From contig NW_006763151.1 in assembly GCF_000264905.1 (NCBI RefSeq), positions 431,643-495,642 on the forward strand: a DNA stretch of 64,000 nt, written 5' to 3'. This DNA comes from Stereum hirsutum FP-91666 SS1. Lineage: Eukaryota; Basidiomycota; Agaricomycetes; Russulales; Stereaceae. A program made the translations under genes and the position numbers. Within the stretch, counting starts at the first letter, position 1, and each line of letters starts with the position of its first letter. Below are positions 12,910-18,803 of the stretch, piece by piece. Under the pieces are notes generated by a model. It saw nothing but the letters and a program-made list of their open reading frames with translations, did not search any database and was not told where the DNA came from.

Positions 12910-15900
12910 ATGACGATTCCATTCCCTCCCCCTGGCTACGTAGAGGCCTCGCTCAAGCGCGTTCGTGTATTCTTTGGTGGACAATGGATTGTCGACACGA
13001 AGGTAGCTAAGCTCGGGTACGCCTCTCCTCTCTGTGGTTCACCAATTTGAACAGACACTCATCCAGTGTGATGTATGTGCAGGTGGGAACATCCGAACTA
13101 CCCGCAATATTTCTTCCCCCTATCTGAGGTCCCCGAAAAATACCTCGAAAAATCTTCTGAAGATACATACGATGTCGTTGTTGATAGCAAACGTGCGGCT
13201 CAAGCTGCCATAGTCTTCAAGGGCGGCCCATTTTCTGGACTTTTGCGGATTGTATTTGGGAAGATGGACGCATGGTTCGAGGAGGAAGAGCAGATTTTCA
13301 TTCATCCGAAGGATCCATATAAGGTGTGTACACATTAGGCTCTGACCAACCGTTATATTTGAAATCGTGAAGATAATCGTTCACTGTTATAACGGCTGTT
13401 CCAATTTGAGGGCCTTTTGCGGGGCGCCTCCGCACCTGCCTCATTGGGACATGTTGCGCACTTGGCTCGTCGCGCGCGGGCTTGCGGGCCGAGAAGTACC
13501 CGGGCGCAGGGAACTCGAACGAAAATTCACTAGTGTACCAAATATAATCATTTGAAGCCTATATCCTCCTTGCTTGCTCGAAAGCTAGCTTCCATAACAT
13601 GTCTGAGCTACAATGGGCTGAGCCTACTACAGGAAAACCGAAGAAAAGAGCTCCAAACGGTAGTCGTACACCAAGAAGTGCTTCACACCGCCGTGTGGCA
13701 CCGACCCCCAGTCCAGCATCTGTGCCTACAACACCAGTCGGTAATGTGGATTCAACTATATCAATACAACACTCACTCATACTCCACCAGTTTCGCAAAA
13801 TCCTACATCCCTACCCCCCTCAGCAGCCACAGTCCCAACAACTACACCTACCGCCGAGCCCGCCTCCACGCAAAGTAATCCCCACACGGTCCGCTTCATT
13901 CATGTATCCTCGGGTCCTCAATCTGCTGCGTCCAACGCACAGCCACCAAAGAAACCCACCGGCGCACAGCTGGTTGAGCTTGTCTTGTCGTTCATTTCGA
14001 GTGAGGAGTGTGGCGAGGCCACCTTGGCCGACTTCCTCTACCATCTCTTCAAGGAGAGCACGACCAAGGACCGGATGGTCACCACTCTTCTGAACGGAAC
14101 CTGTCACTCGAGCCACTCCTTCTCTCAAATCCTGAGTACCCTCTTAAATCGCACCATCGCGACTGTCTTCCGCAAGAACGATCAGACCGCCCCAGAAAGC
14201 GGCTACTACTATACACCGGGACAATCGTCGCAAGAGCACGAACACGCCCATCCCGCTCTCATTGCGTGGGCGTGTGAGCTGGTCGCGGAGCTGGTCCATC
14301 GGGAATCTGACATCATGATCTCCAGGAAGGCCGGGCTCCACGTTCGCGCTAAGAATACATCGAAGAAGAAAGCAACGAGCTCGTCCACGGCCACACCGCC
14401 ACTCGGTTTGAAGAACACGGCGCCACTCGAAGAAGGTGTGGTGCCAAACGAGGTGGACGTTGAATTGGGTGCCATTGGAGAGGACCAAAGTCGGAGTAGC
14501 AACACGGGAAGGGTCGAGGGCGAGGGAAGGGAGGATGGAGTTGATGATAGTGCAGATATTGAGATGGCGCTTGCGGACAACGAGCCGGAGTCTTCGGAGG
14601 AAGAGGGTATGGATCACGATGAGTGTGAAGATGAACGGAGGGGTGACAGGCCGGCGATGCAGGAGGTGCAGGAAGAGGCGAGGGAGGACGTAGTGAGGGA
14701 CGAAGCTGCGAGAGGGAGAGCTGAGGGCCCATCCATGGCGGACCGTCGTACTGAAGCACCGATGTCTGACGACCACATCACCTGGCAGAAAATAATGGAC
14801 TTCAGTCATGGGAAGATGCAGAAGACAGCGAGGAAACACGCACCGATTATGTGGATGTTGATTAATCACTATACGTCAGTCCCCCGCTTGACAAAGGACG
14901 ATGCGGGAGGTCGGGTTGTTGCACAGAGGGTCTATCGTCCAAATGAACTTGTATGTCTGGTAGCTCCTTCTAAAATATAAAAAGCGAATCATTAAGCTGT
15001 CGTGAGCAGGTATGCATCAATGCACTGATGTCCCTTACCTTCGGTCGATCCAATCGAGCGAATCTTTACCCCATGTGCCGAGGTATCTGGCTCTTCGCAG
15101 TGATGGCACCGAAAACCATCTTCCGCGTTGAGAGCCGACTCGCCCAAACTGTCGTCTACCAGACTGTAATGGACGCGCTCTACTCAATGGCGAAAGGTCA
15201 ACGCGAAGAGCTTCGTGCTCTCATGAGAACCAACTCGGGCGATCCAGACGATCCAAATTGGCAGCCTCCGACTGACTTTTGGGACGTCAGCGATAACGTC
15301 CAGTTCTTCCGGCACGTCTACGACCAGCGATTTGGGAATGAAAGCGGGATGGTGACGGGCTATTGGGGCACGATGGTCCAAATGGCTGATTATGAGACGG
15401 ACGCACTGCTTGCGGCTCCACTGATCGCGGCACAGAATCACATGGAGCGTAAACAACTTTCAGTCGACATTCTGCAGTCTAAAATCAACCATACTCACCT
15501 CGACAATGTCTCTTGGACTGCAGTTCTGCGCCCGCTCCTGGAATTTGACCCGAACCTCAGCTACCTGAAGACCTCATTCGAAGCACGATCCACCGAGCTT
15601 CTCAGGGTTCATCAGATTCCGGAGAGTCGCGAGACAAAGATCTTGCCATTTTCTTCCAACAATGCGAACGAAATGACGCCTGCCGGTATGAAGCAAGCGA
15701 TTGCGGATCATTTTTTACAGCGAGGAATTGATCGGGATACTCACAAAGGACGTATCTATATTCACTCCGGGGACGGGAAGACCTTTGACATGTACCTCAA
15801 GCTGCAGAAGTACCTCTCCACGCACGAGAACGACATTGAGGCTTTGCGCTGCCTACTTCCGATGCTCGAAACCTGGCATACAAAGTGGACGGACCTCAGT

Positions 15901-17812
15901 CGGACGATTCGCGCGTCGTTAGGAAAAGACGCACCAGATTCGGACCCTTCGACTCTCAAAGCATTCGCAAGAGAGACGAACTGTAAAGTGCCGACAGATC
16001 CGCATAAGATCAATTTCTACGAAGGCAAGCACTTATTAGAATTAGCTTTTAATGCGCATATACTGGTACTATGGGAGTGAGTACTCACATCATCTCTGGA
16101 CACTTGGTTGACAATGCCGACTCTGACCCTTGTGACATTGTGGTACTGGTAGAGATATCCTGGGAACGACGGACATCATCAAATTCTTCGCAGAAAAGGC
16201 CGAGGTGAAGGACCATACAACGACCTTGGCCTTGCCTTGAACGATCCACAGGAGATCTGGAAATTCGTAGCCTGCAAGTGTATGAGACAGCTCGTGTACG
16301 ACAACACGGACGTTGGGCCGCTCGTTGCTCTCCCGGTGAAGTGTGTACTGACCCGGAGACAGACTGAGTGCTTTGGCGATCTCGTATACCGCTGGACCAT
16401 CCTCTAACGTCCCCGTCACGCCGATGCATACGGTATGAGGTAGTAGTCGTTTACGCAGAACCCCAATCTGGAGGTAAGCCTTCCGAAATTCCTTCCCCCA
16501 CGACAGAAGTGTCTGAAGCTCATCGATTCCTAGAATGATGAGCTTGTCAAGGAACTGATCATCGCGTATGATTCGATTGACCTCCGGGGACACGAGACGT
16601 TCGGGCGAGAGAAGCACGACCGGCCAGTCGCCTCTGCAAATCTCATCATAGATGCGTGGACCGTGCTTCTTGACAGTTTCGGAATGCAGAGCGATAGCTT
16701 TGAGGCCGTATTCTGCCATCTCCGCGACCTACACCATTCGCTGTGAGTATCCTTGTTTTGATTGGAATATTTCTAGCCCTACCTGACTGTTTTCGAGTTC
16801 GACAAGGGGACTGATGATGATCGCGATGGGGTTTTCTGGTGCTGGTCGTCCGGCGATAGTAAATTTTATTTTGTGTTTGATTAAGTAGAGTATGATTATG
16901 ATGGGTGCGTAGAACAGCGCTGTTTTTCCTCCTCCGCATGGAACCTCAATAAAATGGTGTTCGCCGTCCATGGTATAACCCCAAGAAACATGCTGAAATT
17001 TTCGAGGCCCTGTTGTCCATTGAGGAATGCATCTGGCGATTATGTGGTCGAAAAGGGAGTGTCTTTCAGAGGTGAGCAGGTTGGTAAGGAGAGCGGCGGA
17101 GTCGACATTGTCGCTCATTGAGAATAAATAAGTTGAGGGTGGTTTTCTCTATGTTTCGCTACATAGACTACGCTACCGAAAAGACATTGGGCGCGACGCG
17201 TCGAAGTCACATGGTCGCGTTTCCGGGACCGACGCGCAGCTCTGAGCTTGCGCAACATGTCCCGATAAGGCAGGCGGAGAGGCGTCCCGCAAACGGCCCT
17301 CAAATTGGACAAGACTATGTACACATCCCCTCCGATATTAACCATGTTATTCTATCAGACTCATGCTTTGACTCTCTGCTGTACATACAGCGTGTAGAAG
17401 TGCTCCCCTCTTCTCGTCACATCCGTGTCGAAGTTGACGGTGTAGAAGTTGCAAACACGAAACGAGCTCGCCTCCTCTTCGAGACCGGCTTACCCGTTCG
17501 CAGTTACATTCCTAAAACCGATACACGTTTGGACATACTGGAACCCTCCAGCCTCACTACTCAATGCCCTTACAAGGTGAGCAACTGCTCGAGCCCAAGC
17601 TGTGTATCTCATGCTGACTTGAGCAGGGGGTGGCGAGCTACTACAATGTGAAGCTGCCTTCGGGCCAGACACGCGATGATATAGTATGGTGGTACCGTAC
17701 GCCACTCCTGGAGTGTTCGGAGATCAGAGGACATGTGGCTTTTTATGATGAGAAGGTCGACGTTTGGGTCGACGGGGTGAAGGTTGAGAGACCGAAGACG
17801 CATTTTGCTTGA
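12910..17812 (+). CDS. Two-domain DUF427 protein, split by a 4-kb intronic insertion
   Basis: Model: 12910-13016, 13083-13323, 17391-17576, 17627-17812; phases agree and give 239 residues. Domain 1 (about residues 15-115) has VRVFFGGQWIVDTK and WEHPNYPQYFFPL. Domain 2 (about 118-239) has VLPSSRHIRVEVDGVEVAN, RSYIPKTDTRLDIL, CPYKG, DIVWWYRTPLLE and the family ending AFYDEKVDVWVDG with ERPKTHF. DUF427 domains have a compact beta-rich fold, and their function is not settled. Intron 2 runs 13324-17390 (4,067 nt) because a mobile element sits in it; without the element and one 9-bp repeat it would be 76 nt. The donor (GTGTGT) and acceptor (CATACAG) are intact and both junction codons are phase 0, so the reading frame survives. 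Whether the long intron is still spliced cannot be seen. Confidence 0.9.
13327..13335. repeat. Left 9-bp flanking repeat (candidate target-site duplication)
   Basis: TGTACACAT occurs here and again at 17318-17326, just outside the two ends of the inserted element. It lies inside intron 2 of the DUF427 gene. Removing one copy with the element leaves an intron of exactly 76 nt. Confidence 0.65.
13400..13460 (+). repeat. Left inverted repeat of the element
   Basis: A 61-nt arm starting TCCAATTTGAGGGCC and ending GGGACATGTTGCGCA. Its reverse complement is at 17249-17309 with seven mismatches and no gap. The arm begins 64 nt inside the inferred left end, whereas the right arm begins only 8 nt inside the right end. 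Confidence 0.88.
13599..16240 (+). CDS. DUF6589 protein of the mobile element, probably C-terminally truncated
   Basis: Model: 13599-13740, 13791-14950, 15010-16076, 16153-16240; phases agree and give 818 residues. The N-terminus is Ser/Pro/Thr-rich and low complexity. Residues ~125-180 contain GAQLVELVLSFISSEECGEA and ATLADFLYHLF, as in family members. A charged disordered stretch follows (~235-365), then the conserved core with SLTFGRSNRANLYPMCRGIW and APKTIFRVESRLAQTVVYQT. The DUF6589 body includes VSWTAVLRPLLEFDP, MKQAIADHFLQRG, GDGKTFDMYLKLQKYL and LETWHTKWTDLSR. The acidic GDGKT motif is a plausible catalytic site, but no function is proven. The ending after FFAEKAEVKD is short for the family and overlaps the helicase gene in antisense, which suggests a deletion cut off the normal C-terminus. 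Confidence 0.8.
16090..17118 (-). CDS. RecQ-like DEAD/DEAH helicase of the mobile element, truncated
   Basis: Superfamily 2 DNA helicase, N-terminal ATPase lobe. Model on the minus strand: 17118-16783 and 16728-16090, in phase, 324 residues. Motif I is PCGGGKTALFY (about residues 59-69) and motif Ia is around ISPLVELENSQ. The region PVVLLSPERLVSPEVN follows, then motif II as IDELQTLLSWGKEFRKAY, where RecQ proteins usually have DEAH. Motif III is GVTGTLED. After NVRVVVHELSHTL and LLWIVQGKAKVVVW the family-like sequence stops. The remaining ~35 residues are the antisense of DUF6589 coding sequence, so nearly all of the second RecA-like lobe is missing. It reads away from the right inverted repeat, whose inner edge is only ~130 bp upstream of the start. 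Probably inactive as a helicase in this copy. Confidence 0.8.
17249..17309 (-). repeat. Right inverted repeat of the element
   Basis: A 61-nt arm, the reverse complement of 13400-13460 with seven substitutions. It lies upstream of the helicase gene and probably includes part of its promoter. Confidence 0.88.
17318..17326. repeat. Right 9-bp flanking repeat (candidate target-site duplication)
   Basis: Second copy of TGTACACAT, directly after the right end of the element. It is followed by the rest of the ancestral intron of the DUF427 gene. Confidence 0.65.
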
Positions 17813-18803
17813 GCTTAACACGGTAATCAGGAGATGTGATTCGGTTTACGGCAGTGATACTCGACCGCTCATTCCAAAATCATGTACAGTCTATACGTCG
17901 TATTGTTCGCTGCGGTCAAAGACAGTGCACAAAGAAGAACCTTCCCTCTAACTTCCCTCGAGTCACGTCGGGCCACATTCGTTACTTGCCGCTGGCAAGC
18001 TCGCTCGACGCCACCTATCGAGCCTGGTCCGTGCGCACTCTGCCATCCTTCATAAGCGCGCCTTCGACATCTGGAAAAGGCATACTTACCTTGATGGGAT
18101 ATTCCCCTTCATGTACCTGGGAGTGTCGGCCGTTGGGTTCTTCCATTGCACGGCGACCTTGTCCCCAGAGGAACCTGGCGGTTTGTACGGTCCTATGGGC
18201 CGTGCACCGTCTCAATATTTTCCTGTCCCACTCCGGCCCTCGGGCTGGGTGGGCCATTTTTTTTTGGCCGGTTCGCTGGGCTAACCCTAACCCTATATTA
18301 CGCCTCAGTGGCGAAGAAAGTGGGTGCCACATTACTTACCTCAATACTGTATTATCCTTCCTTGTTTTTGGTGGAGTTGCAAGAGGTTGTGGAGTGACAT
18401 CATATCCACTCCGTTCTTTGTATACACCTTGCTCGAACTAGGAGTCACATTCATTCGAATCAGACTAGTACTTGGCCTGCAGCTGAGCGGACACACTATA
18501 ACTACGGAGACGCACGCAAAGATAAACACAAATAATTGAAACATGACACGCGGCAACTTATCGCGAGTTTGAAGTTCCTGTGAGCTCGCGGAGGGAATTC
18601 TTCACTTTTGTAGCTCATTGTGCAAAATTGAATCGCTATGGCCCTTTGCACAAGAATGCTTACGAAGTGCAATAATCCTAAGCCTTCATTTTTCTTTTGA
18701 CCACCCCAGTAAGTCAACAGTAAGTAATTACGTGCAGCGCCGAACGGTGGACCAAGAACGAAAGAACGGGGAGTGCCGTACAGGCTTTCTTTTGTTTGCG
18801 ACG
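17813..18803. other. Intergenic region with a short telomere-like repeat
   Basis: No supported gene lies between the DUF427 stop and the next F-box gene. At 18282-18294 there are two tandem units of the CCCTAA telomere type, just after a run of eleven T. Short frames are open on both strands but show no family. Confidence 0.5.

Follow-up and report, generated by a model that had tools for sequence, protein, structure and literature searches.

AcademH, of the Academ superfamily, was reportedly described by Kojima in 2020 (Mob DNA 11:15). In the portions of the literature available to us, its target-site duplications are given as 9 or 10 bp and a helicase as its distinguishing enzyme (PMC10045372), it is described as low-copy in Basidiomycota (PMC10799480), and Academ is counted among the aspartate-aspartate-aspartate/glutamate (DDD/E) superfamilies (PMC9587614). 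Excerpts of the last source also describe KolobokH, which carries a RecQ helicase and is confined to fungi, 4-bp TTAA duplications for Kolobok, and one rhodophyte Kolobok whose RecQ helicase is encoded on the complementary strand, and an excerpt of another reports subtelomeric RecQ-like helicase genes of fungi, with many copies in a mushroom (PMC7473861). Here we report the analysis of a 64-kb stretch of DNA (the window) from the 46-Mb, 38-contig genome of Stereum hirsutum FP-91666 SS1, in which a host gene is interrupted by an insertion carrying a DUF6589 gene and a RecQ-like helicase gene. We conclude with high confidence that this insertion derives by internal deletion from a transposon with convergent genes for a likely DDE transposase (DUF6589) and a RecQ-like helicase, most likely of the AcademH lineage, and is itself non-autonomous.

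The insertion is a DNA transposon, 3,982 bp long (13336-17317), whose outermost bases are TAG...CTA. The original prediction had described a 61-bp inverted repeat with 54 of 61 positions identical, a 9-bp flanking direct repeat and the restoration of a 76-nt intron in an intact gene upon removal of the insertion, and each of these observations was reproduced. The direct repeat, TGTACACAT, flanks both sides and is exact to the base, and the inverted arms proved to be subterminal rather than terminal, lying 64 nt (left) and 8 nt (right) from the insertion edges. When the flanks were joined, with the insertion and one repeat removed, the intron measured exactly 76 nt from GT to AG, and the protein encoded by the joined flanks matched the DUF427 profile over positions 1-93 of 93 (E=2.5e-38).

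The two ends of the window element also occur together elsewhere in the genome. Its left-terminus pattern was found at 23 places with up to three mismatches, four of which, all with three mismatches, were dropped (one of them, on C10, was unlike the rest on inspection). Among the 19 places kept, four have both ends and an exact 9-bp duplication of their own, namely the window element and three miniature copies, two of 222 bp and one of 224 bp, of which the last ends in CCA, not CTA. A related 6,601-bp element, C17, interrupts a dispersed repeat, and six related loci were compared with its joined flanks. Four of them, which are paralogous copies and not alleles, are uninterrupted across the insertion point (L052, L053, L054 and L055, with 99.2, 98.8, 97.9 and 93.8% identity over 240-243 columns), while L057 matches only partially and L056 not at all. 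The sequence GCATCCGCA is present once and unchanged in L052 and L054, and with one base different in L053 and L055. From these uninterrupted copies of the C17 target, TAG...CTA is established as the ends and 9 bp as the length of the duplication without recourse to the window. The dispersed repeat itself, found on contigs C8, C2 and C22 with 94-99% identity over about 240 bp, has internal inverted similarity and could represent a further miniature element with recent activity.

Genome-wide searches, whose match counts are lower bounds, revealed at least 21 matches to the DUF6589 family at 13 separate loci, and at least 13 matches to the window helicase exon, of which 10 lie no more than about 7 kb from a DUF6589 locus. 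Thus a helicase match adjoins 10 of the 13 DUF6589 loci, leaving three loci of each kind unpaired. The helicase always lies on the opposite strand, in convergent orientation in nine of the ten pairs and divergent in C7a. Element ends were sought in all ten pairs, and TAG...CTA ends with an exact duplication of 8-9 bp were identified in six (Table 1). The end sequences vary between elements that carry this gene pair. The outermost bases of the C6 ends are identical at 109 of 111 positions, and C6 looks the freshest of these copies. The C9a pair has both ends within unlike flanks, and the C36 pair has one end only, the contig ending before the other; no element ends were found at the C7b and C23 pairs. 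For the unpaired DUF6589 loci, C2 showed no ends even with wider flanks, and the scan of C31 and C11 covered the short loci only. As a control, 60 dinucleotide shuffles were made of each of 10 comparable genome blocks other than the window; structures of the form TAG/exact 9-bp repeat/CTA, spanning 1.5-14 kb, arose in them at 0-0.05 per block, and the same shuffles yielded none of the stricter TAGNCTY structures with an 8-bp repeat. The original prediction that DUF6589 and the helicase constitute one transposon system is supported within this genome by the recurrent pairing, the six bounded elements, the uninterrupted targets and the transposase-like model of DUF6589 described below.

Two further bounded structures were set aside. 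A 1,549-bp TAG/8-bp/CTA structure at C7b had an expectation of 0.13 by shuffling, and the gene pair lies outside it. The other, at C31:23454 (L025), is 584 bp long, runs from TAG to CTA with a repeat of 8 bp, lies close to a degraded DUF6589 match and has inverted ends of another sequence. Nested in the C9b element is a DDE_3/HTH_33-type transposase open reading frame (ORF; C9:838492-839250), and an inverted repeat at C9:834390 and C9:845098 lies at other positions than the ends of C9b.

Both genes of the window copy are incomplete. The DUF6589 domain was detected in the ORF at 14974-16080 (E=1.5e-37) over profile positions 11-211 of 410, or up to position 224 in the genome-wide search, and its relative P0001, 77% identical, extends beyond the point of truncation. 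The window helicase has a DEAD domain (E=8.8e-12), and its best solved relatives are RecQ proteins (E=1e-12); no Helicase_C domain was found in it by Pfam scan, whereas P0018, which shares 90% identity with it over 59% of the query, runs on into Helicase_C. The simplest reading of the sequence is that one internal deletion, near 16,210 as judged by eye, removed the 3' half of each of the two convergent genes and would leave the window copy unable to encode a complete transposase or a complete helicase. The window DUF6589 product lacks the likely third catalytic residue. The splice sites of the DUF6589 model were placed visually, guided by GT/AG and by relatives. To the original prediction this adds the correction that the window copy has lost part of each gene.

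Table 1. Coordinates and properties of the features of the window, of related elements and of solo left ends
Feature	Position	Strand	Size or duplication	Remark
Host gene for DUF427 (NTP_transf_9) protein	12910-17813 (end approximate)	+		exons intact
Host intron with insertion	13324-17390	+	76 nt after removal of insertion	
Left target-site duplication	13327-13335	none	9 bp	TGTACACAT
Left terminus	13336-13399	+	64 nt outside arm	starts TAGGCTCTGACC; also repeated elsewhere in genome
Left inverted arm	13400-13460	+	61 nt	54/61 identical to right arm
Truncated DUF6589 gene (likely DDE transposase)	13599-16213	+		lacks profile positions after ~211-224 of 410
DUF6589 modelled exons	13599-13740, 13791-14950, 15010-16076, 16153-~16213	+		
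Internal deletion junction (by eye)	16204-16219			end of homology for both convergent genes
Truncated RecQ-like helicase gene	16216-17118	-		DEAD domain present, Helicase_C missing
Helicase modelled exons	17118-16783, 16728-~16216	-		
Right inverted arm	17249-17309	-	61 nt	54/61 identical to left arm
Right terminus	17310-17317	-	8 nt outside arm	ends CTA
Right target-site duplication	17318-17326	none	9 bp	TGTACACAT
Window element			3,982 bp; 9 bp	
C17 element			6,601 bp; 9 bp	
C6 element			6,700 bp; 9 bp	
C7a element			11,138 bp; 9 bp	
C15 element			7,401 bp; 8 bp	
C9b element			10,910 bp; 8 bp	
Solo left ends with exact repeats	C14:182335, C8:1304784, C13:1133219, C9:1065679(-), C17:466828(-), C9:1709244, C17:1289291			L002, L003, L077, L078, L079, L094, L097

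DUF6589, a Pfam domain of unknown function, occurs in proteins of many mushroom species, and the closest proteins from named organisms belong to Artomyces pyxidatus and Amylostereum chailletii, both of which we take to be Agaricomycetes. A full-text literature search by the name DUF6589 returned no paper, and one by PF20231 returned only a nanophotonics paper by title. The structure model of a full-length DUF6589 protein resembles DDE transposases, and its nearest solved structures by VIA-align are the hAT (Hermes) and P-element transposases, though a family missing from the VIA list is not thereby excluded. A Foldseek search gave no significant match, and no relative was confirmed when viral contigs were scanned with the DUF6589 alignment. 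The putative active-site DDE triad is D237, D397 and E703 in the relative P0005. The suggestion that DUF6589 is a candidate transposase is strengthened by the model together with the recurrent helicase pairing and the element ends, and we infer that it is the catalyst, that the triad is catalytic and that the elements move by a cut-and-paste route in which the helicase takes part. In the proposed mechanism, the DUF6589 protein would bind the TAG-ended termini and the subterminal inverted repeats, its metal-dependent DDE site would cleave at TAG/CTA, and the element would be inserted at staggered cuts to give the 9-bp duplications, with the helicase probably unwinding the ends or aiding gap processing. 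With DUF6589 as a likely DDE transposase, a set of mushroom genes so far unexplained could be recognised as belonging to mobile elements, and the same may hold for some of the RecQ-like helicase genes that have multiplied.

At the other 15 of the 19 places with the window left-terminus pattern, the left end stands alone; these solo ends are the most unusual feature of the system and, with the probable function of DUF6589, one of its two points of interest. Seven of them are flanked by exact 9-bp repeats enclosing 44-62 nt of element sequence, and ten by repeats that differ at no more than one position, enclosing 44-66 nt; at the remaining five (C1, C3b, C18a, C18b and C12) there is no flanking repeat. 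In control comparisons, 9-mers taken from eight other upstream offsets gave 0 of 15 each, and left 9-mers tried in other loci gave 0 of 210 exact matches and 8 of 210 with up to one mismatch. The inner edge of several solo ends is TATAAC, a sequence found six nt outside the inverted arm of the window element, and others end earlier. Seven additional loci, which carry the other type of ends, showed no convincing duplication, and at L088 an 8-bp match lies 1,466 bp away with no preceding CTA. A hairpin in the left terminus found no support as the cause of the solo ends, 42 of 200 shuffles folding equally well (z = -0.74 for the DNA fold). Possible explanations are cleavage near the arm on the left combined with precise cleavage on the right, interrupted repair of the gap after excision, or one-ended transposition. 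We tentatively suggest, as an idea that may well prove wrong, that the solo ends are the trace of a helicase-coupled reaction treating the two ends unequally, either by one-ended transposition or by excision that is precise at the right and falls near the subterminal arm at the left. The defined ends, the duplications and the 222-bp miniature copies offer substrates for studying the role of a RecQ-like helicase in DNA transposition. Separately, at L099 (C12:814343-814703) two left termini of the window subfamily apparently stand face to face within roughly 130 bp, and in the window CTAACCCTAACCC at 18281-18293, 3' of the host gene, resembles two interstitial telomere repeats.

Mutator-like elements (MULEs) typically have duplications of about 9 bp and long inverted repeats, and the window element could be one of these with DUF6589 and the helicase as passengers; the 9-bp duplication and the 61-nt arms fit, though the arms are subterminal. 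However, Pfam scans of four ORFs of the window element and of selected relatives, a subset of the ORFs of all copies, found no MULE transposase among the domains detected, which were DUF6589, DEAD, Helicase_C and one nested DDE_3 element, and the gene pair stays constant across unlike ends. A MULE identity was rejected on these two grounds and is very unlikely. That the two genes are unrelated and were captured together by chance, their mobility being due to another element, would account for the three DUF6589 loci and three helicase loci that are unpaired, yet pairing is seen at ten of 13 DUF6589 loci, in subfamilies whose ends differ, and the predicted DUF6589 fold is transposase-like, which makes such a coincidence hardly credible. 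Membership in KolobokH is suggested by the fungal RecQ helicase of that lineage and by the complementary-strand helicase of the rhodophyte element, but the described 4-bp TTAA duplications disagree with the varied duplications of 8-9 bp observed here, and in KolobokH as described the transposase domain is followed downstream by the helicase, whereas here the helicase occupies the opposite strand, convergent in nine of ten pairs. As far as that partial description goes, we therefore rejected this assignment, whose probability we consider very low.

Compared with the other described systems, the DUF6589-helicase elements share with the hAT (Hermes) and P-element transposases a helical stretch ahead of the putative catalytic E in the DUF6589 model, for which these are the nearest solved structures, while the identity is 6-8% (VIA-align rows 1-7); hAT and P elements make 8-bp duplications and are not known to have a helicase gene. 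To the subtelomeric RecQ-like helicases of fungi they are similar in their multicopy RecQ-like core; those genes are described as subtelomeric. With KolobokH, in the excerpts at hand, they have in common a RecQ helicase in a fungal transposon with a DDD/E transposase, putative here, and they differ in the duplication and in the placement of the helicase. The closest likeness is to AcademH as its available descriptions present it, in the exact 9-bp duplications of the window, C17, C6 and C7a elements and the three miniature copies, and in the RecQ-like helicase match at ten of 13 DUF6589 loci; the 8-bp duplications of C15 and C9b differ from the 9 or 10 bp of AcademH, and the window copy differs as a deletion derivative. 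We infer, from AcademH as known here by description, that these elements belong to it and that DUF6589 is the Academ transposase. Helicase-encoding transposons with 9-10-bp duplications are, by those partial accounts, already known as AcademH, and the window copy fits best among such AcademH-like transposons as a new member that has undergone internal deletion.
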